Source of the DNA: Acidaminococcus timonensis
GTDB lineage: Bacteria > Bacillota > Negativicutes > Acidaminococcales > Acidaminococcaceae
DNA length: 64,000 nt
Direction: 5' to 3'
Assembly (NCBI RefSeq): GCF_900106585.1
Contig: NZ_FNWH01000004.1
Location: forward strand, 186,001 to 250,000
In this document: positions 21,996-61,913 of the stretch, one piece after another
Numbering within the stretch: the stretch's first letter is position 1
Layout of the letters: each line of letters starts with the position of its first letter
Notes under the pieces: model-generated
Databases searched by the model: none
Told to the model about the DNA's origin: nothing
The model's input: only the letters and a program-made list of their open reading frames with translations
Made by a program: the position numbers and the translations under genes

Positions 21996-22125
21996 AAAGG
22001 GGGTGTGAAAAAATGCTTTTTACCCCCGTCACTAGTCACTAGTCTCTAGTCACTAGCTGATGGAAGCCAGCTGACGCTAGCGAAATAAAGGCGCTGTGGA
22101 TGATTTTTTCACAGCGCCTTTTTTT
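21994..22125. repeat. Composite intergenic repeat, copy 1, ending in a terminator
   Basis: Order: decayed GGGGTGTGAAA hairpin (22000-22027, right arm has lost CACA), heptamers of CACTAGT type, a GATGGAAGCCAGC/GCTAGCG segment, and a terminator hairpin AAAGGCGCTGTG / CACAGCGCCTTT (22087-22121) with a T-run. A nearly identical copy lies at 50173-50304. Both lie between convergent genes. Confidence 0.85.
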
Positions 22126-29777: not shown

Positions 29778-31298
29778 TCACGTAATCGGTGCCGGATTGA
29801 AGATACACAGGTCATTATGGAAACCGTACTGGTCGCTGTAGGGTTTCTTCCTGCCGCTGGCCACATCCAGGATGAAGTGGAAGATCCGGGTCCCCACTTC
29901 CGGAATGGTAGCCTCCCCGGTGGCCACCCCGCCGGCAGAAATATCGATCAGGTCGAACCATTTGTCCTTCATTTCATTCCGGCTGCACACCTTGATCACC
30001 GGCGCAATGGCCAGGCCGTAGGGGGTGCCCCGTCCGGTCATGAACACCTGCAGGCCAATGCCCGAAGCCAGCTGGCTGGGTCCGCAGACGATATCGCTGG
30101 CCGGGGTAGCCGCATAGATCAGACCGTGTTTCGTGGGCTTTTCTGCCGGGGACAGGACTTCCACGATGGGACTGGTGCCGCTTTTGGCAATGGAGCCCAT
30201 GGCCTTTTCCACAATGTTGGCCAGGCCGCCCTTCTTGTTCCCCGGCGTGGGGTTGGCATCCCGGTCCACGCCGCCTTCTGCCAGGTAGTCATCGTACCAT
30301 TTCATTTCCGCAGCCAGCTTGTCCCGCACTTCCCTGTTCACACAGCGGGCGGCCAGCATGGGGACCCCGTCCCTGACTTCCGTCACTTCGCTGAACATCA
30401 CCGTGGCGCCGCCCTTGACCAGCATGTCGGCTGCATAGCCGGCACTGGGGTTGGCCGTCAGCCCGGAAAAGGCATCGGAACCACCGCACTGCAGCCCTAC
30501 CACCAGTTCACTGAGAGGCAGTTCTTCCCGGCGGCGCTGTTCCAGCTTCTGCAGCTTTTTTTCGGCCATATCCAGAATGGCCTGCATCATGGCATCATGA
30601 CCATGGTAATCCTGCAGGGTCAGGCAATTGTCCGGATTGATTTCCTCCGGTTCCAGCAGCCGGTCATAGGTCAGCTTTTCGCAGCCCAGACCGATGACCA
30701 TGATCTGGCCCCCAAAGTTGGGATGGCGGATCAGGTTCCGTACCGCCCGGATGGGGATTTTGGCCAGAGGCGCATTGATGGCCACCCCGCAGCCATAGGG
30801 ATGGTTCACGGCCACCACATCATCCACATGGGGATACTTGGGCAGAAGCTCCTTTTTGATCCGGTCCACGGCCACATTCACCACCCCGGCCGCACACTGC
30901 ACGGTGGTGACGATTCCCAGCAGGTTCCGGGTCCCGGCCGGACCCACCTGATTCCTGTATCCCATCCAGGTGGTCTCCGGTGGATCCGGCAGTTCTTCTT
31001 TGGGCACAATGTGGGTGGCATAGGGCAGATCATGGAGGGCCGGACTTTCCGGCAGATCCAGCATATGTTCGTTGATCCAGCTGCCTTTGGGAATGGCCTC
31101 CTTTGCATAGCCCAGGACCACCCCGTAACGGATGATCTCGCCCCCTTTGGGGATGTCCACCAGGGCGATCTTATGGGCCTGGGGAATGGGCTGCAGGGCA
31201 AACACTCCCGGCAGTGCTTCCGTTCCCACAGGCAGGTCGTGGACGGCAATGGCTACATTGTCCTTCTCCTTGACCTTGATGACAAGCGGTACAGTCAT
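29778..31298 (-). CDS. garD: Galactarate dehydratase (UxaA/GarD family)
   Basis: Dehydrates galactarate to 5-dehydro-4-deoxy-glucarate; an Fe-dependent cytosolic enzyme. 506 residues, close to the 523 of E. coli GarD. An N-terminal SAF domain (about 1-95) is joined to the catalytic domain, and stretches such as [29 protein letters not shown] and [11 protein letters not shown] match GarD better than altronate dehydratase. The conserved Cys of [15 protein letters not shown] and [12 protein letters not shown] are likely iron ligands. The start follows GAAAGGA. Substrate could also be another C6 aldarate. Confidence 0.85.
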
Positions 31299-31320: not shown

Positions 31321-31374
31321 AGAACCCACCACCAGCCATTCGGCTGGTCCCCCGCCCTTGAAAAGGGCGGATAT
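31321..31374. repeat. Multi-hairpin intergenic repeat, reversed single copy
   Basis: GAACCCACC, hairpin ACCAGCC-ATTC-GGCTGGT, then CCCCCGCCCTT and AAGGGCGG. Same layout as the units at 55174-55410 but with a different, still self-complementary, hairpin tip. Confidence 0.75.
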
Positions 31375-31383
31375 AAAAGAGGG

Positions 31384-32907: not shown

Positions 32908-34227
32908 TTACCCAAATACTTTGTCCGCATATTCCGTCAGTTCTGCACGGAAGTCCGGATGAGCCACCGCAATCATGGCCTGGGCCCGTTCCTTCAGGGA
33001 AAGCCCGGTCAGATGGGCCACCCCGTATTCTGTGGCCACATTCTGGATCAGGGCCCGGGGACCGGAAATGGCACTGCCTGCAGGGATGGCCGGCAGGATG
33101 TTGGAATGGCGTACGCCCTTCTTGTCCACCCGGGACGATTCGATACAGATGTACCCTGCACCGCCCCGGCTCAGGAAGGCCCCTTCCAGGAAGTCCAGCT
33201 GGCCGCCCACGCCGGACAGCTGCCGGGTGCCTACGGATTCAGCGTTCTCCTGGCCCATCAGGTCCAGCTGCACGCCGCCGTTGATGCTGATATAGTTGGA
33301 GATCTTCTCCATGACCCGGGGATTGTGCACATATTCCACATCCGCCGGATAAAACAGGTCAGGATGTTCCTGCAGCCAGTCATACAGTTCCTGGGAGCCG
33401 CTGGCCAGGTTCCAGGTGCTGCGGCCGGTCTGGACTTCCTTTCTGGCGTTGGTCAGCTTGCCGGCCTTGTACAGAGCCAGGAACGCATCGCTGATGGTCC
33501 CGGTGTGGCAGCCCAGATCTTCCTTGTCGCTTTGGGCCAGCAGCTGGGCAATGGTAAAGGGAATGGTGCCCACACCCAGGCTCAGGGTGGCTCCATTGGG
33601 GATTTCCGCCACCACATTCCGGGCAATCTGCAGGTCTGCTTCGCTGGGGGTCCGATACCCGGAGGTGCACAGGGGGCCATGTTCCCCCTCCATGATCACA
33701 TCGGCTTCGTCCAGGCTGACCCGGTGGGAGCCGTCCACCCCCTGGAGGGTGGGCATGTGTTCATTGATTTCAAAGACCACTGTGCGGGCTTTCTTCATAA
33801 TGGCTCTCCAGCCGTAGCTGGCCAGTCCCAGGCCGCAATAGCCGTTTTCGTCCGGTTTGGACACGGGGATCACGGCCACATCCACCTTCAGATACTCCCG
33901 GTACATTTCCGGCAGCAGCCGCAGCAGCATGGGCACGAAGCTCAGGCGCTTCTGGGTGAACATTTTCCGTTCGTAGGCGCCCAGATGCCAGCTGTAGTAG
34001 TGGAAATGCTTCATTTCCGGATCGCAGTCCACCGTGTGGATGAGGGGGCGATACACCAGGCCGCCCCGGATCTTCACATCCGTCAGTTCATCCCGGCGGG
34101 CTGCCAGGGCCTCATCGAACAGTTCGGGAAACCCGTTGCCGAATCCGAAATCCACCCAGTCGCCGTTTTTGACCACTTTGGCTGCTTCCGCCGGGGTCAT
34201 GATCTTGTTGCGGTATTTTTCTAACAT
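32908..34227 (-). CDS. Acetyl-CoA hydrolase/CoA-transferase family protein
   Basis: 439 residues, two-domain family I CoA-transferase fold as in acetate, 4-hydroxybutyrate and succinate CoA-transferases. ISINGGVQLDLMGQENAESV and GVGGQLDFLEGAFLSRGG are the conserved C-terminal stretches; SLGVGTIPFTIAQ and HTGTISDAF lie in the middle. ATG 34227 has GGAGGAAT upstream. It would move CoA from an acyl-CoA product (for example from the OFOR in this cluster) to acetate or another acid. Acceptor and donor are inferred only from context. Confidence 0.87.
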   Translation of the reverse strand: MLEKYRNKIMTPAEAAKVVKNGDWVDFGFGNGFPELFDEALAARRDELTDVKIRGGLVYRPLIHTVDCDPEMKHFHYYSWHLGAYERKMFTQKRLSFVPMLLRLLPEMYREYLKVDVAVIPVSKPDENGYCGLGLASYGWRAIMKKARTVVFEINEHMPTLQGVDGSHRVSLDEADVIMEGEHGPLCTSGYRTPSEADLQIARNVVAEIPNGATLSLGVGTIPFTIAQLLAQSDKEDLGCHTGTISDAFLALYKAGKLTNARKEVQTGRSTWNLASGSQELYDWLQEHPDLFYPADVEYVHNPRVMEKISNYISINGGVQLDLMGQENAESVGTRQLSGVGGQLDFLEGAFLSRGGAGYICIESSRVDKKGVRHSNILPAIPAGSAISGPRALIQNVATEYGVAHLTGLSLKERAQAMIAVAHPDFRAELTEYADKVFG

Positions 34228-34258: not shown

Positions 34259-34312
34259 GAACCCACCATCCGCCATTCGGCAGGTCCCCCGCCCTTAAAA
34301 GGGCGGATATCC
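34259..34312. repeat. Multi-hairpin intergenic repeat, reversed single copy
   Basis: ACCCACC, GCC-ATTC-GGC hairpin core, GGTCCCCCGCCCTT and AAGGGCGGATATCC; same layout as 31321-31374 with a more decayed stem. The rest of the gap up to 34454 contains a CCGGAACCCT/AGGGTTCCGG stem-loop (around 34371-34401), probably a terminator for the VOC gene. Confidence 0.7.
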
Positions 34313-34454
34313 CTGTGATCGGTTGTTTATCGTTTCTCTCAATGAACGATGGATCTACCCATAGGATAAACGCCGGAACCCTCCTTGTCAAAAGGGTTCC
34401 GGCGTCATCATAGAGGGGTATGGTTTGTTTCTTTTCAGGAGTCGTCTTACACAA

Positions 34455-50172: not shown

Positions 50173-50304
50173 AAAAAAGGGGGTGTGAAAAAATGCTTTT
50201 TCACACCCCGTCACTAGTCACTAGTCTCTAGTCACTAGCCGATGGAAGCCAGCTGACGCTAGCGAAATGAAGGCGCTGTGGATGATTTTTTCACAGCGCC
50301 TTTT
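50173..50304. repeat. Composite intergenic repeat, copy 2, ending in a terminator
   Basis: Intact GGGGTGTGAAAAA / TTTTTCACACCCC hairpin (50180-50209), heptamers CACTAGT-CACTAGT-CTCTAGT-CACTAGC, GATGGAAGCCAGC, GCTAGCG and terminator AAGGCGCTGTG / CACAGCGCCTT (50270-50302). Nearly identical to 21994-22125 over about 130 bp. Confidence 0.88.
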
Positions 50305-50310
50305 CTCTGT

Positions 50311-51549
50311 TTATTTCACGGCTTTTACAAAGAACTTGATGAAAGCAATGGTCTGGGGCTGGTAGATCACATCCACCAGGAACGCCCCCACAATGGGTAC
50401 GATCATGAAAGCCTTCCGGCTCATACCGTACTGGTCCTTGATGGCCGTCATATTGACGATGGCAGAAGGCGTCGCTCCCAGTCCGTGTCCGCACAGACCG
50501 GCACACATCACTGCCGCATCGTAATTGCTGCCCAGCACCCGGAACACCACAAAATAGCAGGCCAGAGCCATGAACACCACCTGGGCTGCCACAACCAGGA
50601 CCACGCCGCCCAAAAGACCCGACAGTTCCCACAACCGCAGGGTCATCAGTGCAATGGCCAGGTACAGGTTCAGCATCACATCGCCGATGGAATCCACCAG
50701 AGAGAAACTGAAATTGTAGAAATGGCCCTTTTCATTCATGTTCCGCCACAGCACGGCCAGGAACATTGCCCCTACATACGTAGGGAAACTCATGTGGATC
50801 AGTTTTCCGATCCAGCCGGAAATCACCGTTCCCAGTGCCATGCACACCAGAATGGCAGTTACGTTCCTGATGATGTCCAGCCCTGACAGTTTTTCTCCGC
50901 TGGCCGCATTCACGTTTTCCACATCCGTATCGAAGTCTTCCGAAGGATCCGGTTTCAGATGGTACTTTTCAATGAGCAGCCGGCCCAGAGGTCCACCCAG
51001 CAGCACGGCCGAAATCAGGCCAAAGGTGGCCGCAGCCGCCCCCACTTCCATGCCGGCCGGATACCCCATTTCCACAAAGGTCTTGCCATAGGCCCCGGCA
51101 GCCCCGTGGCCCCCGATCATGGAAATGGCACTGGCCAGGAGGGCATAGGGTTCCGCCAGTCCGGTGACCTTGCTGATGGCGATGCCGATCACATTCTGGA
51201 AGAAAGAAATGATCCCTGATGTCAGCCAGTAGATGATCAGCAACCCGCCGCCCTTTTTCAGCAGGGAAAGAGAAGCCCCCAGGCCTACCGTGGTAAAGAA
51301 AGCCAGCATGAACGGATTCTGATAATAGGTATCGAATTTAAACCCGAAAGCCCCGGTCTGATGTCCGATGAACGTGATGAACATGAACAGGAAGCCTCCC
51401 ACCACCGGTGCTGGGATGCAGTATTTCTGCAGGGCTCCGATCCGGTTCTTCACCCAGTACCCGATCAGCAGCATCACTGCAGCCAGCGCCGCCGTACAGA
51501 TGGCGTCCGCCTTGATGGTCAGCACATTGTTCATAAAAACGATGGACAT
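50311..51549 (-). CDS. gltS: Sodium/glutamate symporter GltS
   Basis: 412 residues, about ten to eleven membrane segments in two halves. PAPVVGGFLFMFI, ASAISMIGGHGAAGAYGKTF, and MCAGLCGHGLGATPSAIVNM contain the GGHG-type pore loops of the ESS family. Imports glutamate with Na+; fits amino acid fermentation. Convergent with the M20 peptidase gene across the composite repeat. Confidence 0.93.
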   Translation of the reverse strand: MSIVFMNNVLTIKADAICTAALAAVMLLIGYWVKNRIGALQKYCIPAPVVGGFLFMFITFIGHQTGAFGFKFDTYYQNPFMLAFFTTVGLGASLSLLKKGGGLLIIYWLTSGIISFFQNVIGIAISKVTGLAEPYALLASAISMIGGHGAAGAYGKTFVEMGYPAGMEVGAAAATFGLISAVLLGGPLGRLLIEKYHLKPDPSEDFDTDVENVNAASGEKLSGLDIIRNVTAILVCMALGTVISGWIGKLIHMSFPTYVGAMFLAVLWRNMNEKGHFYNFSFSLVDSIGDVMLNLYLAIALMTLRLWELSGLLGGVVLVVAAQVVFMALACYFVVFRVLGSNYDAAVMCAGLCGHGLGATPSAIVNMTAIKDQYGMSRKAFMIVPIVGAFLVDVIYQPQTIAFIKFFVKAVK

Positions 51550-51676
51550 GGTATCCCCCTCTTTCCCCGGTGGAGCGATGCTCCCTCAAATTTGTTTACA
51601 AGGTAGTAATATTGTACCATGAGCTCATCAGAAAATCGTCAAAAAGAAAGAGAATTCGTCCACAAATAACATTCCC

Positions 51677-51758
51677 TATATCCGCCCTTTTCAAGGGCGG
51701 ATATAGGGACCATGCGTCAATATGGTGGTGGGTTCTCCCCCAGGGGGAGCTACAGATG
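51677..51758. repeat. Multi-hairpin intergenic repeat, single complete copy
   Basis: ATCCGCCCTT-TTC-AAGGGCGGAT hairpin, then ACCATGC-GTCA-ATATGGT, GGTGGGTT and CTCCCCC-AGGGGGAGC hairpin ending TACAGAT. Same unit as the tandem array at 55174. Lies between the SLC13-like gene and gltS. Confidence 0.8.
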
Positions 51759-51771
51759 ATTCCCTTTTCCC

Positions 51772-53085
51772 TTACATTACAAAGGCAACCAGGAAATTGT
51801 ACGCTGCACAGGCCAGCACACTCACCGGTACAGCCCGAAGCAGCAGTTTGTTGAACAGGGTGGTCCGGTCTTCTTCTTTGGGCGTGGATCCCAGAATCAG
51901 AGAACCGCCGGAAGAGAACGGGCTGATGGCACTGGATTGTGCACCCAGCACCGTGCAGGCGAACAGCGCCCCGGCAGAAAGCCCTGTACTTTCCGCCAGC
52001 CCCGGAATCAGCGGGAATAACGCAGGCGCCACCACCCCGGTGGTAGAACTGAAGAAGCTCATGATGGCCGCAATGATGGAGAACGCCAGAGGGATCAGCA
52101 GCGTGGGCACATTGGCCCCCACCCAGGTGCTGAGCATCTTGATGGTCCCGGCTTTTACGGCTACGGAAATCAGCATCCCGGCCCCGGCAATCATCACAAT
52201 GGTGTTCCAGGGAATCCTGGCAATGGCTTCCTTCTGGGGAGCCAGTTTCAGCAGCAATGCAATCACCGCAAAGATGATGGCCACCAGCCCCACATCCACC
52301 TTACCGGCCAGATAGGAAATGGTGGGATTCCCCGGCACGAAAATCTTCAGCAGCGGGAAAATCAACACCACCACCATCATCACCAGCATCAGGGTCAGGG
52401 TCTGTTTCTGTACCGGCGTGAACGGTTCCGGCTGCTTGAAGGTGACACCTTTACCAATGTTCCGATTGGCTTTGATCCCATAACGGAATACGGTGATCAG
52501 CGCCAGAGAAAACACCAGGGACAGCAGGAAGATTTCCATTTCCATGGCAAAGGAATCCATGGGAGCCGTCAGTTTCAGAGACTCATAGGCCGTATCAGAA
52601 AGGCCCCGGAAAATCACTCCCAGATTGGAAGTGGGGAAGTTCCCTCCACACAGGGCCCCGCAGTTGATGGCCACAGCTCCGGTCAGTTTGTCCATCCGGG
52701 ATTCATCGCAAATCAGCAGGGTGATGGGTGCCAGGAAAGCCAGTACCGTAAAATAGGTTGCCCCCATCACAGACAGGATCACAGCTACGCCGAAGAGCGC
52801 ATAGGGCAGCATCCCCGGGAATTTCCGGCAGGAATACAGCAGGGAACCGGACATTTTTTCCAGTGTCCCGTTGATGGCTGCCACATTGTAGAACAGAGAA
52901 ACAGACAGGATCACGAACATGGTGCTGATGGGCCAGAAACCGATCACCGCTTTCGGCTTCAGACCCATGACAAGGCACCCGATCAGGTACGCAAAAACGA
53001 TACAGAACAGCCCGGTATTCAGACTGGTTTTATACCCCAGGTAAATGGCAATGGCAATGGCCAGGATAATCGCAGCGCTCAACAT
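51772..53085 (-). CDS. SLC13/MatC-like dicarboxylate permease
   Basis: 437 residues with about eleven membrane segments and no large soluble part. MGATYFTVLAFLAPITLLIC, INCGALCGGNFPTSNLGVIF and SFFSSTTGVVAPALFPLIP resemble the MatC/ion-transporter superfamily, whose members carry malonate and other dicarboxylates. It is 23 bases after a DUF6282-like hydrolase gene, so its substrate is probably that enzyme's substrate or product. Confidence 0.82.
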   Translation of the reverse strand: MLSAAIILAIAIAIYLGYKTSLNTGLFCIVFAYLIGCLVMGLKPKAVIGFWPISTMFVILSVSLFYNVAAINGTLEKMSGSLLYSCRKFPGMLPYALFGVAVILSVMGATYFTVLAFLAPITLLICDESRMDKLTGAVAINCGALCGGNFPTSNLGVIFRGLSDTAYESLKLTAPMDSFAMEMEIFLLSLVFSLALITVFRYGIKANRNIGKGVTFKQPEPFTPVQKQTLTLMLVMMVVVLIFPLLKIFVPGNPTISYLAGKVDVGLVAIIFAVIALLLKLAPQKEAIARIPWNTIVMIAGAGMLISVAVKAGTIKMLSTWVGANVPTLLIPLAFSIIAAIMSFFSSTTGVVAPALFPLIPGLAESTGLSAGALFACTVLGAQSSAISPFSSGGSLILGSTPKEEDRTTLFNKLLLRAVPVSVLACAAYNFLVAFVM

Positions 53086-54129: not shown

Positions 54130-55050
54130 ATGGATCTTCGAGAACTTCAATATTTACTGGCCCTGGCCGAAGAAAAAAGCATTTCCCGGGCTGCCGAAAG
54201 GCTGTTCATGGCCCAGTCCAGCCTGTCCCAATTCCTCAGCAACACGGAATCCCAGCTGGGATACAAACTGTTCATCCGCACCTCCAGCGGCATCCGTCCC
54301 ACCGAACCGGGAAAACGGATGATCCGCTTCGCCCAGGATACCCTTTCCGAATTTCACCGGGCCAAAGATGAGATCCAGGATATCGGCAATTTGAAAGGTG
54401 GCCACGTGATCCTGGGCATCAGCTCCTTCCGGGGCTCCTTCCTGCTGCCTCCAGTGCTCCAGGCTTTCCAGAAAAAATACCCGGGGATCCGGGTCCAGAT
54501 TGTGGAAGAGAACTCCCTGGCCCTGGAACAGCTGCTGCTCACGGGAAAGATTGACCTGGCCCTGCTGGTCATGCCGGAAAAACGCAGCCGCATCCAGGCC
54601 CGCTTTTTGATGAATGACGAAATCTGCCTGATCACCAGCCCCAATCATCCTGTGATGGAGTGCGTCCATCAGGGACAGGCCGGGGTGCATCCCTCCCAGC
54701 TGTCCCAGTACATCAACATCCAGGATGCAGCCTGCTACGAATTCCTGCTCAGCGGCTACGATACCATCCTGGGCCGGGAAGCCAGAAGGATCTTCCTGCG
54801 CCACGGCATGAACCCCACCTATTACAACGAAAACCTGACCGCATTTTTTGCCGCCTCCCTGGGGGCCAGCGGCCTGGGCCTGGCCTTTACCTACGCCAGC
54901 AGCCGCCAGTACTTCCATCGGGCCCAGTTGCTGTCCTTGGGCAAAGACGGCACCTCCATCGCCCTGGGCACGGCCATGGCACCGGGACGGTACCATTCCA
55001 AAGCTACGAAGGCCCTGGAACAGGTGATTTTTGAAGTGCTGGGGAAATAG
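54130..55050 (+). CDS. LysR-family regulator, divergent from hydrolase-permease pair
   Basis: 306 residues: helix-turn-helix ALAEEKSISRAAERLFMAQSSLSQFL; effector domain from about residue 92. The start has AAAGGAG upstream, 130 bases from the start of the divergent hydrolase gene. Likely regulator of that unit. Confidence 0.9.
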   Translation: MDLRELQYLLALAEEKSISRAAERLFMAQSSLSQFLSNTESQLGYKLFIRTSSGIRPTEPGKRMIRFAQDTLSEFHRAKDEIQDIGNLKGGHVILGISSFRGSFLLPPVLQAFQKKYPGIRVQIVEENSLALEQLLLTGKIDLALLVMPEKRSRIQARFLMNDEICLITSPNHPVMECVHQGQAGVHPSQLSQYINIQDAACYEFLLSGYDTILGREARRIFLRHGMNPTYYNENLTAFFAASLGASGLGLAFTYASSRQYFHRAQLLSLGKDGTSIALGTAMAPGRYHSKATKALEQVIFEVLGK

Positions 55051-55086
55051 ACACCAAACCGACCCTTCCGACTGCACCATAACAAA

Positions 55087-55122
55087 AAAGGACTTTCCAT
55101 TCGCAAGAATCGAAAGTCCTTT
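55087..55122 (+). terminator. Terminator after the LysR gene
   Basis: AAAGGACTTTC / GAAAGTCCTTT with an inner ATTC/GAAT pair and a GCAA loop, followed by TTTCTCGTTTT. Confidence 0.85.
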
Positions 55123-55173
55123 CTCGTTTTCATGAACCTATGATTTTATATTTTCCCAATATCCGCCCTTTTT

Positions 55174-55410
55174 AAGGGCGGGGGACCATGCGCAGCATGG
55201 TGGTGGGTTCTCCCACGCAGGGGGAGCTACAGATTTCAAGGGCGGGGGACCATGCGTCAGCATGGTGGTGGGTTCTCCCCCGCAGGGGGAGCTACAGATT
55301 TCAAGGGCGGGGGACCATGCGTCAGCATGGTGGTGGGTTCTCCCCGCAGGGGGAGCTACAGATTTCAAGGGCGGGGGACCATGCGCAGCATGGTGGTAGC
55401 TACAGACGCA
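55174..55410. repeat. Tandem array of 64-65 bp multi-hairpin units
   Basis: Units start at 55174, 55238, 55303 and 55367; three are complete (64, 65 and 64 bases) and the fourth has an internal deletion of about 26 bases. Each unit holds AAGGGCGGGGG, hairpin ACCATGC-GTCA-GCATGGT, GGTGGGTT, hairpin CTCCCCC-GCA-GGGGGAG and CTACAGATTTC. CCGCCCTTTTT at 55163-55173 can pair with the first AAGGGCGG. The array fills the gap between the LysR and nitroreductase genes. Confidence 0.9.
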
Positions 55411-55416
55411 GCCCCT

Positions 55417-55956
55417 TCAAAACTTTCCCCAGTGGACCCGTTCCGGACGAGCTTCCTCCAGCGTCCGGGGGCGCTGTTTTTTGACCCCATGGCCCAGGGC
55501 CAGGATGGCTTCCACTTCCACCCCTTCCGGCAGTTCCAGCAGTTCCGCCAGATACTGATGGGACGAGAGGCACTGCCCGTCGGCTCCCTTTTTTTCCGCT
55601 GTCATGTGCCGCACCTGGACCCAGCAGCTTCCCAGCCCCAGTTCCGTTGCCTGGAGCATCATCGCCATGAGCGTTGCCGAAGCATCTTCCACCCAGGCAT
55701 GGGAATCCAGCCGCCCCATGACCACAATGGCGGCCGGGGCCTGCTCCAGCATCTGGGCAAAATGGGGCTTGCACCGGGCCATGGCCTTTACCACAGACCG
55801 GTCCTCCACCACCAGCAGTTCCGTACTGTGCAGGTTTTTGCTGCTGGGTGCCATCAGCCCTGCCGCCACGATTTTTTCCAACGCCTTCCGGCTGACCGGT
55901 TCTTCCGTATACTGCCGTACACTCCGACGAGCCGCCAGCAACTCGAAAAGTTCCAT
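55417..55956 (-). CDS. Nitroreductase-family flavoprotein
   Basis: 179 residues. LFELLAARRSVRQYTEEPVS is the FMN-phosphate-binding start; APSSKNLHSTELLVVED and GLGSCWVQVRHM are also typical. The short length fits the small NADH/NADPH-dependent FMN reductases of anaerobes. The ATG at 55956 is preferred to 55962, which abuts the AAGGAGGT site. Physiological substrate unknown. Confidence 0.88.
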   Translation of the reverse strand: MELFELLAARRSVRQYTEEPVSRKALEKIVAAGLMAPSSKNLHSTELLVVEDRSVVKAMARCKPHFAQMLEQAPAAIVVMGRLDSHAWVEDASATLMAMMLQATELGLGSCWVQVRHMTAEKKGADGQCLSSHQYLAELLELPEGVEVEAILALGHGVKKQRPRTLEEARPERVHWGKF

Positions 55957-58686: not shown

Positions 58687-58962
58687 GTGGCTCAAAAATT
58701 CGTGAGCAGGTGGCTCACTTTTTCATGAGCATGAGTGGCTCAAAAATTCGTGAGCAAGTGGCTCACTTTTTGGTTGACATTCACATGAAAATCCAGATCA
58801 TTTGCGAAAGCTGGGGAAATCGACGTCGGACCGGCCTTTCCTATACTCCCAGCTCTTTTCATTTGCAATATAACAAAAAAAATAAAGGCAAGGCTCTTTT
58901 TGATGTGACCCCAAAAAGTTAGACCTTAGTAACGAGATGGTTTTTACTGTCTCGTTACTTTT

Positions 58963-59808
58963 TTATGCTGCCTGCAAGGAAAGCCTATATTGAACAGGAC
59001 TTTTCCAGCATAGTTTTTCCTTGATCCTTTGCTCGTTATAGTATTTAATGTATCGTTCGATAGCGTTTTTTAGTTCTTCGTAGCTGTAGTAGATTACTCC
59101 ATAATACATTTCCTGCTTCATTAAGCCGAAGAAATTCTCCATTACAGCGTTATCATGACAGTTGCCCTTTCGAGACATGCTTTGAAAAATTCGTCCTTTT
59201 TTTAGATTCCTGGCATAGGCCTTCATTTGGTATGCCCAACCCTGATCGGAGTGAAACGTTCTTCGATACGGACAATCAGCAGTAATTTCGATTGCTTCAG
59301 CTTGAGCTTCCAGTATGCTTTCAGCCGAAGGACGTTTTGCTATTCCATAGCTGATGATTTCATCATTGAACATGTCCAGGAAAGGATCCAGATAAAGCTT
59401 GTGCAGGGTCAGATGTCCCTGTGGATCTACTTCATAGTATTTGAATTCTGAAGTGTCGGTTGTAATCTTCTGATGTGGGATATTCGTCTCAAAACGACGA
59501 TGTATTCTATTGGGAGCAATGGTTCCTACCTTACCCTTATAGGAGCTGTATTTACGGCTTTTCCGGGTAAAGGATGTTACCTGAAGGCTCAGTTCCTGCA
59601 TGATACGTTGAACTTTCTTCTTGTTCACGCAAAGCCCTTGATTCTTCAGCTCACCGGTCATGCGCCGATATCCATAATCTTTATGCTGGCTGCGGATTTC
59701 CTGTATTTTGTCCTCTACTTCCTGGTCTGGATTCACGCGGTCAAACCGTTTCTGCCAGTACATATAGGTCGCTTTAGGCATTTGAGTATAGGAGAGAAGG
59801 TCTTTCAA
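58963..59808 (-). CDS. IS3-family OrfB transposase (DDE)
   Basis: 281 residues. Integrase core with Asp in TTDTSEFKYYE, Asp in FHSDQGWAYQ and Glu in NAVMENFFGLMKQE, the D-D-35-E arrangement of IS3. HTH_21-like domain at 30-85 (HKDYGYRRMTGELKN). The TTG at 59808 is the formal start, but expression is probably by frameshift from OrfA. No stop breaks the frame. Confidence 0.92.
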   Translation of the reverse strand: MKDLLSYTQMPKATYMYWQKRFDRVNPDQEVEDKIQEIRSQHKDYGYRRMTGELKNQGLCVNKKKVQRIMQELSLQVTSFTRKSRKYSSYKGKVGTIAPNRIHRRFETNIPHQKITTDTSEFKYYEVDPQGHLTLHKLYLDPFLDMFNDEIISYGIAKRPSAESILEAQAEAIEITADCPYRRTFHSDQGWAYQMKAYARNLKKGRIFQSMSRKGNCHDNAVMENFFGLMKQEMYYGVIYYSYEELKNAIERYIKYYNEQRIKEKLCWKSPVQYRLSLQAA

Positions 59809-60383
59809 TTTGAATGATCTTCGGAGACTGGAGATGATTTTCGCAACTCTCTCATTTTTGCTTCGTCCTCTAAACGCAGTCTCCTCAGTTCTTTTAAAAA
59901 AGCATTCTCTATACGGAGTTTAAGGAGTTCATCCTCTAACTCCTGGACATGTTCCACACTGATGTCGACCATCGGCTGCTGAACCTGGGGATCTGTTTTT
60001 TTGGTTTGAGATTTGTTCAAAGTTCTCTTCCTGCCTTTTTTATGTGGCCGTAACGCTTCCGGCCCCGCAATTTTAAATTCATTGACCCATCTGGAAATCA
60101 TGGATGGATTATTGATTCCTACTTGAATTGCCAATTCCTGATACGAGATTTCGTTTGTTAAGTAAGACTCTACCACAGAAAGTTTTTCTTTGAAAGAGTA
60201 TATTTTTTGAGAGCGGGATCTCTTCAGTCCATTATCACCAAATGCCTTGTAAGCAGCAACCCACTTTAGCAGCTGGCTGCTACTTGCCATCCCATATTTA
60301 CGTGAAATAGAAATACACCCTTCGTCACTGTTCAAGTATTCCAGTACTATTTTTTTCTTAAATTCATAGTTGTGTTTTGCCAT
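59805..60383 (-). CDS. IS3-family OrfA (DNA-binding protein)
   Basis: 192 residues: two helix-turn-helix segments (about 7-50 and 65-110, e.g. SYQELAIQVGINNPSMISRW), a basic linker and a C-terminal leucine-heptad coiled coil (ELEDELLKLRIENAFLKEL). Its stop overlaps the OrfB start in the -1 frame, the layout in which IS3 elements make an OrfAB fusion by programmed frameshift. The typical A6G slippery heptamer was not found. Confidence 0.9.
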   Translation of the reverse strand: MAKHNYEFKKKIVLEYLNSDEGCISISRKYGMASSSQLLKWVAAYKAFGDNGLKRSRSQKIYSFKEKLSVVESYLTNEISYQELAIQVGINNPSMISRWVNEFKIAGPEALRPHKKGRKRTLNKSQTKKTDPQVQQPMVDISVEHVQELEDELLKLRIENAFLKELRRLRLEDEAKMRELRKSSPVSEDHSN

Positions 60384-60435
60384 AAAAAACTGACCCCCAA
60401 TTGTTAGATTTTTGGTCTAACAATTGGGGGTCAGC

Positions 60436-60927
60436 TCAAAGATATTCTCCTGCCATTCCAACAGCCTTCAAACCGAAATAAACAACCAACATACCAGGAA
60501 TCAGGAACATCATGGTCCCGACCCAATCCGGAACACCCAGCAGCTTGTTCAGGATACTTCCACTGCCGTTAAAGTAAGCGATCAAGCAACTGAAAGAGTT
60601 TAAAGTTACAGCCAGAAAAATTAAGATCTTTCCTATCGGTCCTACATATCTCTCTGCCAGCCCAGGTAATTGCATCATTCGTTTTGTCCGTAAGGCCGTT
60701 TCTGCAACATAGTACATCGAAAACAAAGTCGTAATCCCAGAAACAATCAGCCAAAATGCAATCACAGGAAATCCGGCATACCTTGCCCCATAAGCTGTTC
60801 CCAAACAACCTGATCCAACGCCACATCCAACAACTGTAAAAATAACTTGCAACGGAGTTAATTTTCTTACTTTAAGAGCGCCCTCTTCATAAAGAGAACC
60901 TGTATCTTTTTTTACGTCTGCATCCAT
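60436..60927 (-). pseudogene. Truncated amino acid permease (SdaC/TyrP-like)
   Basis: 163 residues, about 40 percent of the usual 400. Hydrophobic segments start with VIFTVVGCGVGSGCLGTAYGARYAGFP, like the Gly-rich first helix of the HAAAP/APC amino acid permeases. It stops at TGA 60438-60436, three bases from the right end of the IS3-type element, after only four or five helices. A normal start with GAGGAGG is kept. The missing C-terminal half is not on the other side of the element, so it was deleted. Probably inactive. Confidence 0.85.
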
Positions 60928-60971
60928 ATCTAGTTCCCTCCTCTCGTACTGCTTTTGTGAATTTATTGTCT

Positions 60972-61787
60972 TCAGTATTTATTTATCGCGTCCATCGAAA
61001 AAGTGGATTCTTTAAAATCATTCATATAAGGAATCCGACTCCGAATTTCAATGATTTCGTTCAGATTAATTTCATGGATCAGCAATTCTTCTTCTGTCCG
61101 AGATGCTACTACTCTTTCTTCCCCATCAGGTCCAACGATCATGGAACTGCCACATACATTATCTCCTACCGTGTTACAGCCAACAGTAAACAGGAGATTG
61201 AACAACGCGTTTGCTTGTAAATCTACATGCCATCTATGTTCTGCAGGGTCGATACTCCAAACGCTGCAATCCACAATGATTTCAGCACCTTTCAATGCTT
61301 CGATTCTTGCAGGTTCGGGATATTCTACATCATAACAAATAAGCATCCCGACTTTGCCAAATTTTGTGTTAACAACCGGATACCGATTTCCCTCACGGAA
61401 CTTTAATTTTTCAGTTCCCCAGGCATAAACCTTACGCATATTTTCAATGACCTTCCCACCATCATCAATAAAGATTGCAGAATTATAAATTCTCCCAGGG
61501 ATTCCGCAGGATTCCGGATAACCAGCAATAATATGGATTTTCTTTTCCTTTGCTTTTTTACATAAAGTCTGCACAAAAGGACCATCTTGGGGTTCTGCCA
61601 ATTCTTGCATCTGCAGAGAGTTGCAGAAGTATCCGGAATAAGCCAATTCAGGGAATACAATCAAATCTGCATTTTGAGCAGCTGCCTTGTCTGTCATATC
61701 TAGAATTTTCTGTAAATTTTTGGTAGTATCTCCTTGTACTGAAGTGAACTGACCCAATGCAATTTTTACTAATCTATCCTTTTCCAT
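60972..61787 (-). CDS. Carbon-nitrogen hydrolase (nitrilase superfamily)
   Basis: 271 residues. The catalytic triad is visible: Glu in VFPELAYSGYF, Lys in MRKVYAWGTEKLKF and Cys in MLICYDVEYPEPAR. The protein hydrolyses an amide or nitrile, as in omega-amidase or N-carbamoyl amidohydrolases. Together with a peptidase-like gene and two amino acid/dicarboxylate transporters, it may deaminate an imported amide. AGGAGGA precedes the ATG. Confidence 0.88.
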   Translation of the reverse strand: MEKDRLVKIALGQFTSVQGDTTKNLQKILDMTDKAAAQNADLIVFPELAYSGYFCNSLQMQELAEPQDGPFVQTLCKKAKEKKIHIIAGYPESCGIPGRIYNSAIFIDDGGKVIENMRKVYAWGTEKLKFREGNRYPVVNTKFGKVGMLICYDVEYPEPARIEALKGAEIIVDCSVWSIDPAEHRWHVDLQANALFNLLFTVGCNTVGDNVCGSSMIVGPDGEERVVASRTEEELLIHEINLNEIIEIRSRIPYMNDFKESTFSMDAINKY

Positions 61788-61819
61788 GGTTTAATCCTCC
61801 TTTATTGATCCTGTAAGGA

Positions 61820-61897
61820 AAGGGTTCATCTATCGATATCAATAAAAGCCGTTACCATCAAACACTGGGCATTTATTTTATCTATAGACGAACCCTT
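61820..61897 (-). other. Long-range stem-loop between two genes of the A+T-rich operon
   Basis: Arms AAGGGTTC-TCTAT (61820-61833, one bulged A) and ATAGA-GAACCCTT (61884-61897, one bulged C) around a 50-base loop in the M29-nitrilase gap. Lacks a clear T-run; may be a processing or attenuation site. Confidence 0.45.
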
Positions 61898-61913
61898 GGA
61901 CACTGATTACTCT

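Follow-up and report, generated by a model that had tools for sequence, protein, structure and literature searches.

What is the short tandem array of hairpin-forming units that lies at 55.2 kb in the 64,000-nucleotide stretch of the Acidaminococcus timonensis genome analysed here (hereafter, the window)? The initial annotation described it as about three and a half direct units of 64-65 bp, related to single copies elsewhere on both strands, and offered REP/BIME elements or a structured RNA as its possible nature. Our analysis identifies the array as a member of a dispersed intergenic repeat family in Acidaminococcus and related bacteria, and below we examine how its copies are built, how they change, how they are arranged and what might have spread them.

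The array and the single copies in the window

Half-units of the family are built in this order: hairpin H1 (CCGCCC/GGGCGG), the segment GGGGGACC, a variable and compensating hairpin H2, and the tail GGTGGTGGGTT, followed in A. fermentans by two further hairpins, H3 and H4. The core measures 46-57 bases in the reference sequences, and more when H3 and H4 are counted. The copies in the window, and the parts of the array, are as follows.

55160-55410 (+): array, 3.6 copies of units of ~64-65 bp, from TRF, motif matches and gene models
55163-55181 (+): unit 1 H1, CCGCCC...GGGCGG, in the sole array unit with both H1 arms
55185-55201 (+): unit 1 H2, ACCATGC-GCA-GCATGGT, ATGC subtype, the compensating hairpin, its pairing found family-wide
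55199-55209 (+): unit 1 tail, GGTGGTGGGTT, overlapping the end of H2
55210-55226 (+): unit 1 possible H3, CTCCC...GGGAG, on the basis of H3 stems in other copies
55238-55302 (+): unit 2, with the H1 3' arm only, H2, tail and H3
55303-55366 (+): unit 3
55367-55406 (+): partial unit 4, with H2 present and GGGTT plus H3 missing
51674-51758 (+): single copy with extended H1, partly decayed H2, tail and an H3-like CTCCCC/GGGGAG
31321-31376 (-): lone copy of the AGCC subtype; garD (29778-31298, -) follows ~24 nt downstream in the same sense
34259-34314 (-): lone copy whose H2 has decayed (TGCC/GGCGGA); a CoA-transferase-like gene (32908-34227, -) follows ~32 nt downstream in the same sense

TRF placed the tandem array at 55170-55397 (period 65, 3.6 copies, 96% matches, score 413), bearing out the direct units first described; their location also stood, but the true start lies a few bases earlier than had been given, at ~55160, and a whole H1 occurs in unit 1 only, units 2-4 beginning within the H1 3' arm and lacking the 5' arm. 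AAGGGCGG starts at 55174, 55238, 55303 and 55367 in the array; the window has 19 matches to it where 3.41 would be expected, a count that none of 100 shuffles reached, though some fall inside genes and are not element copies. The possible H3 of unit 1 is absent from the minimum-energy DNA fold, its bases pairing with the tail instead. Flanking genes, assigned by Pfam and NCBIfam matches and a codon model, are convergent around the array, with a LysR-type regulator ending at 55050 and a nitroreductase-like gene ending at 55417.

The single copies that had been annotated at 51677-51758 (+), 31321-31374 (-) and 34259-34312 (-) were all found at those places. The first lies between gltS (50311-51549, -) and a MatC-type carrier gene (51772-53085, -), antisense to both, and its H1 is extended to an inverted repeat (51674-51708) with 16-bp perfect arms and a 3-nt loop, which takes in bases beyond the usual element. 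At the 31321 copy, the reported change from ACCATGC/GCATGGT to ACCAGCC/GGCTGGT retains all seven pairs. Maintenance of pairing thus holds for this copy and for the array, in both of which H2 is intact, but it does not extend to the 34259 copy, whose H2 contains one C.A mismatch and one T.G and whose fold is weak (z -2.40 versus -4.4 to -5.3 in the other four foldings), or to the 51677 copy, where one G.T and one C.A leave 5 pairs.

Other repeats were seen nearby. Heptamer repeats often border hairpin elements, with GTCACTA at 22028-22056 and 50210-50238 in the window and TAGTGAC-, ATTGACC-, GAAGAGT- and ACGATGA-like runs at loci L017, L028 and L083. A 23-bp tandem repeat (58687-58765, 3.3 copies, consensus GTGGCTCAAAAATTCGTGAGCAG) begins a segment, 58687-61913, in which the codon model calls no gene, though ORFs of >100 aa are present.

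Spread of the family and changes in its hairpins

The A. timonensis genome (G000) holds 35 exact copies of GGGGGACC-N6-22-GGTGGTGGGTT and 42 matches to AAGGGCGGGGGACCA with up to one mismatch, the reversed pattern giving 0 in each case; one of the 42 (L026) adjoins neither H2 nor tail. A 24-base core pattern, allowing up to two mismatches, was found in 4 of 61 genomes scanned, the four all belonging to this genus; A. timonensis has 37 matches and A. fermentans WCA-389-WT-5B (G006) the most, 89. Scanning of named genomes located the family in the latter strain, A. massiliensis, a Selenomonadaceae MAG and a Schwartzia MAG, plus one copy in an SR1 MAG. Using a covariance model derived from 98 distinct cores, we found relatives in at least 31 of 250 genomes of the class and at least 13 of 91 genera, lower bounds since up to 23 candidates were scored per genome. 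Eight more distant loci (L194-L201) share the arrangement GGGACC-hairpin-GGTGGTGGG or one much like it, their H1 stems often differing, and viral, plasmid and phage collections gave no match to one core pattern or to one 271-bp A. fermentans unit.

Across the 98 cores, H2 is 96.5% paired and all four of its inner pairs vary on both sides; H1 is nearly invariant, as are GGGGGACC and the tail, in part by construction, the cores having been gathered with patterns that fix these three elements. With an H1-free pattern, 30 matches were examined as loci: 28 have a complete CCGCCC/GGGCGG H1, and the remaining two are array units 2 and 3. One match outside those 30 has a swapped H1, CCTTCCC/GGGAAGG. 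Taken over the complete structure, three measures lie above anything reached in 500 shuffles: the paired share of cells (98.0%, shuffled 89.1%), the number of doubly changed cells (138, shuffled 55, slid controls giving 3-17) and the covariation score (0.240, shuffled 0.085). No excess was seen in the same cores for pairs with change on both sides (4 versus a shuffle mean of 4.0) or for further pair types (11 versus 10.6).

A matched double change could also be followed at one orthologous site, where H2 is ATGC/GCAT in G006 and genome G003 but AGCC/GGCT in genome G007, with the same H1 and GGGGGACC; the 3' flank there is well conserved, and the bases just 5' of H1 differ, G006 having an extra partial repeat at that point. 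The covariation test over genomic copies for which the initial annotation had called gave an excess over shuffles in three measures, and the H2 pairing, the doubly changed cells and this orthologous change support its claim of a conserved shape with changed sequence. The selection on structure that it took this to imply agrees with a fold kept through change, but two measures stand at shuffle level, and hairpin-templated mutation or exchange between copies could give the same pattern.

Stems beyond the tail also come in many sequences. Of 93 A. fermentans copies, 90 have a stem of at least 5 bp (H3) in the 28 bases that follow the tail, compared with 26.8% of dinucleotide shuffles, in 10 distinct versions. 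The next stretch has one of at least 8 bp (H4) in 59 of 93, compared with 8.4%; with the H4 threshold lowered to 5 bp, 87 of 93 is barely above the 74.4% of shuffles. The outer H4 stems as a whole number 66 distinct versions. Post-tail stems in A. timonensis differ by copy, being CTCCC/GGGAG, CATACTG/CAGTATG or CCATACGG/CCGTATGG.

Paired layout, genomic position and the search for a mobilising enzyme

Neighbouring copies within 400 bp of each other in Acidaminococcus (loci L001-L063 and L076-L128) comprise 46 head-inward, 0 tail-inward and 8 same-orientation cases, so that 46 of 54 are inverted; the spacer between head-inward partners is 30-320 bp in the loci read. When copies were sorted into H2 classes by length (short, ≤49; middle, 50; long, ≥51; subtypes within the short class pooled), the two members belonged to different classes in all 46 head-inward pairs (36 short/long, 6 long/middle and 4 short/middle), whereas same-orientation neighbours were alike in 7 of 8. 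From the 75 short, 55 long and 14 middle copies (13 of the last TATCCATGC-like and one ATCTCC), ~43% alike pairs would be expected, and the chance of such a heterotypic rule, hand-calculated from these counts under assumed independence, is ~8e-12. Tail-inward neighbours of a sibling family stand outside this count. In 7 of the 8 loci listed for the Selenomonad/Schwartzia group, the core is followed, tail-inward, by an opposite-strand sibling whose tail is of the GGAGGGTT type, L089 being without one; opposite tail-inward siblings with H1 CCTCCC/GGGAGG and tail GGTGGAGGGTT or close to it were seen at L081, L086, L104, L106, L112, L115, L125 and L194.

By codon-model gene calls, 38 of the 40 copies mapped in A. 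timonensis are intergenic. They show no consistent sense orientation relative to genes, 10 being sense to both neighbours, 16 antisense to both, 6 between convergent and 6 between divergent genes (the two copies inside genes left out, and copies in one intergenic region counted separately). This intergenic position together with the absence of an orientation rule favours a DNA-level, REP/BIME-like repeat over an RNA of fixed sense, which the gene-context count disfavours.

Turnover is visible at several sites. Orthologous sites in G006 and G007, with both flanks orthologous, showed no element corresponding to those at 31.3 and 34.3 kb, and when three A. fermentans pair sites were compared with G007, two had no copy and the third an H2-plus-tail remnant. 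Comparison of the flanks of 149 copies (97 in G006, 38 in G000 and 7 each in G003 and G007), covering stretches that hold copies and so not a census, revealed six shared sites by both-flank match, accounting for 3 of 38 copies in G000, 4 of 97 in G006 and 4 of 7 in both G003 and G007; one further G006 copy, L085, aligns at one of the six. Judging from such copies at the same place in other genomes, above all in G003 and G007, part of the family is evidently old and static. One shared site has two copies in G000 versus one in G003, a parallel to the array at 55.2 kb. At the few sites compared, we found no target duplication and no clean empty site with exact borders, the orthologous intergenic regions in G003, G006 and G007 being too diverged or occupied by other repeats. 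Nested repeats in L021/L022 likewise gave no insertion border, only the H1-swapped copy; at L022:1000-1800 larger repeats cluster, with stretches resembling GTTCGCACACCTCTCT and ACGGTGTTACTCG, and one of these repeats includes the core with the CCTTCCC/GGGAAGG H1.

A link to a RAYT-type transposase, proposed at the outset as a thing to look for, was not found. The Y1 transposase model PF01797, which covers RAYT and IS200-type enzymes without distinguishing them, was searched in the A. timonensis genome, its genus, five genomes behind the named loci and 12 chosen from the 31 with relatives. It is present in 7 of 9 genus genomes and absent in G006; across 17 element-bearing genomes it is absent in 8 (G006, G022, G034, G131, G198, G208, G214 and G250) and present in 9 (G000, G003, G004, G007, G156, G212, G216, G062 and G063). 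The family motif occurs in 0 of 19 distinct Y1 loci, 13 of them from element-bearing genomes (flanks of at most 1.5 kb, cut off earlier where a contig ended, around those Y1 genes given a locus; L069 and L131 are identical). Three Y1 genes in A. timonensis (L031, L032 and L033) have the same score and the same 164-aa open frame, with no motif in 3.4 kb. At L131:1000-2060 and L132:500-1890, divergent Y1 genes sit amid other palindromic repeats (GGGCTTGCCTGCGGCAAGCCCCTACA; GTAGGGGTCGCCCGCAGGCGACCC) that end in CCCTACA/GTAGGGG, and on this evidence a RAYT-type system seems to coexist with the family but does not visibly serve it. With no PF01797 match in eight of the 17 genomes and no motif in the 19 Y1 loci, we reject RAYT/Y1 as a demonstrated mobiliser, although a lost or undetected enzyme may have acted.

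Possible origin of the repeats and comparison with known systems

We consider it probable that these are extragenic palindromic repeats of the REP/BIME type, with neither a GTAG nor a CGTC tag, which spread in trans as heterotypic head-inward pairs. The pair would be the spreading unit, moved by an enzyme that acts on folded single strands, for instance at the replication fork, and single copies and tandem arrays like that at 55.2 kb would be remnants and local duplications. The rule that partners differ would keep a pair from forming one long and perfect inverted repeat, a structure liable to removal by replication and SbcCD-type nucleases; alternatively, two different ends may be required. 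If the fold is what is recognised, stems could alter in sequence because only their pairing must be kept, with the matched arm changes supplied by exchange between copies or by hairpin-templated repair. In favour of this reading stand the dispersed copies, their intergenic position in every orientation, the unlike head-inward partners, the H2 pairing retained as sequence changes, the excess of H3 stems and of long H4 stems over shuffles, the missing copies at the orthologues of two window sites, and the site with two copies in G000 and one in G003. Against it stand the old and static part of the family, the sites that gave neither exact borders nor a target duplication, the short H4 stems and two covariation measures close to shuffle level, and the + strand preference of the core fold, expected of a single-stranded RNA as well. 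Going further, one might tentatively, and with considerable doubt, see in them a third broad kind of bacterial palindromic repeat, untagged, independent of RAYT/Y1, spreading as strictly heterotypic head-inward pairs and recognised by fold and not by sequence, its stems free to change provided that they pair and that partners differ.

Of the other explanations, the likeliest is that the repeats are passive, both arms being rewritten by template-switch (quasipalindrome) repair or gene conversion with no selection on the fold. This would suit the 51677 copy, in which bases of one flank are repeated in the opposite H1 arm, a similar 39-base inverted repeat in L023, and the orthologous site, where ATGC/GCAT and AGCC/GGCT are both common subtypes and H1 and GGGGGACC are unchanged; we nevertheless regard it as rather unlikely, since it does not predict the heterotypic rule, the H3 and H4 stems have many sequences, and the G.T pair of the L class persists uncorrected in 48 of 55 copies. 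That same pair bears on the structured RNA initially proposed, which would be a cis-regulatory or small RNA with many paralogous loci folded from the + strand. When folded as RNA, the core is indeed more stable on its + strand than on the complementary strand in 138 of 139 copies (89 of 90 in A. fermentans, 38 of 38 in A. timonensis and 11 of 11 in the Selenomonad group), H2 mismatches are mostly of the wobble kind (53 G.T and 2 T.G versus 1 C.A, plus 4 other mismatches, among the copies left once 17 unparsed ones were set aside), and two of the window copies closely precede start codons in sense orientation. But most G.T cells are the one inherited L-class pair, the 75 nt 3' of the core show the opposite strand preference (63 of 90, 27 of 38 and 9 of 11 in the same three groups), half-units often form opposite-strand pairs, and the gene-context count has no sense bias. 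The window has no gathering-level Rfam match, and a lax search (E up to 5) of 55050-55450 gave six matches, all far below gathering scores. The strand comparisons hint weakly that one strand is the folding one, in a form that RNA and single-stranded DNA would explain alike. Of the two natures first suggested, then, the REP/BIME-like one fits the intergenic, dispersed and inverted-pair layout, and the RNA, lacking Rfam match and sense bias, appears improbable.

We likewise give little credence, less than to an RNA, to the head-inward pair being a MITE, a non-autonomous DNA transposon with terminal inverted repeats mobilised by a DDE transposase. The outer ends of some A. fermentans pairs are indeed alike and inverted (GGCCGAAGGAA ... 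TTCCTTCGGCC), but the outer H4 stems are widely different, many copies are single half-units, no target duplication was seen at the few sites compared, none of which was cleanly empty, and no transposase was noticed between copies in reading the loci. A role as intrinsic terminators or mRNA 3'-end stabilisers, which the position of the array between convergent gene ends might suggest, is very improbable: a terminator scan of 54900-55600 marked only 55454-55476 and not the array, and divergent sites are as common as convergent ones. The untagged REP/BIME-type repeat spreading as a heterotypic pair is thus the reading that we carry into the comparison below.

The family is real, dispersed, paired and fold-conserving, with a REP/BIME-like layout, outside the tagged REP families and with no RAYT link found. 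BIME/REP elements of Enterobacteriaceae include Y and Z types, and REPINs are inverted pairs of REP-like units. As broadly expected of REP/BIME elements, the copies are dispersed and mostly extragenic, form foldable palindromes (one of the four window loci folding weakly) and occur in inverted pairs; the core, however, exceeds the 20-40 bp that Di Nocera 2013 (PMC3733652) gives for REP units. The likeness to enterobacterial elements, in short intergenic palindromes and inverted pairs of unlike partners, recalls the GTAG-3 REP dimers described there, formed exclusively by elements with different loop lengths (PMC3733652). The Acidaminococcus repeats differ in having two to four hairpins per half-unit, in opposite-strand neighbours that are head-inward only in the loci read, in a core without GTAG (none at either core end in the 98-sequence alignment) and in that, of 17 genomes bearing the element, 8 gave no match to a Y1 transposase. 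CGTC REPs, which in the same account apparently have no dedicated transposase and in some families form predominantly heterodimers (PMC3733652), are similar in both respects; but they belong to alpha-Proteobacteria, whereas our family is found mainly in the class of Acidaminococcus, with another stem sequence and no conserved CGTC tag (none at core ends; CGTT or CGTC follows H3 in A. fermentans but is not constant). REPINs, the subject of PMC3116915, share the inverted REP-like pairs dispersed between genes, unlike the present family in that here no RAYT association was found and partners are of unlike class. The repeats at L131 and L132 are also palindromic and coexist with the family in A. 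massiliensis and Selenomonadaceae S28M, but there GGGCTTGCCTGCGGCAAGCCCCTACA-type repeats flank the Y1 gene, and no match to the motif of the Acidaminococcus family turned up at either locus.

Among the titles listed by searches of open-licence PMC papers, we found no name for this Acidaminococcus family; the main text of Di Nocera 2013 (PMC3733652) has no Acidaminococcus, Negativicutes or Firmicutes, and that of RepRanger (PMC12306157) makes no mention of Acidaminococcus, Selenomonas or RAYT. Its copies could serve as natural data for telling hairpin-templated mutation apart from selection on a fold. The strictness of its pairing, together with A. fermentans WCA-389-WT-5B, which combines the most matches with no detectable Y1 transposase, makes both the heterotypic rule and the mobilising enzyme testable. 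Frequent heterotypy in REPs 'has no obvious explanation' according to the main text of Di Nocera 2013 (PMC3733652), and the Acidaminococcus pairs, heterotypic without exception and drawn from three interchangeable classes, provide a strict case of that rule.
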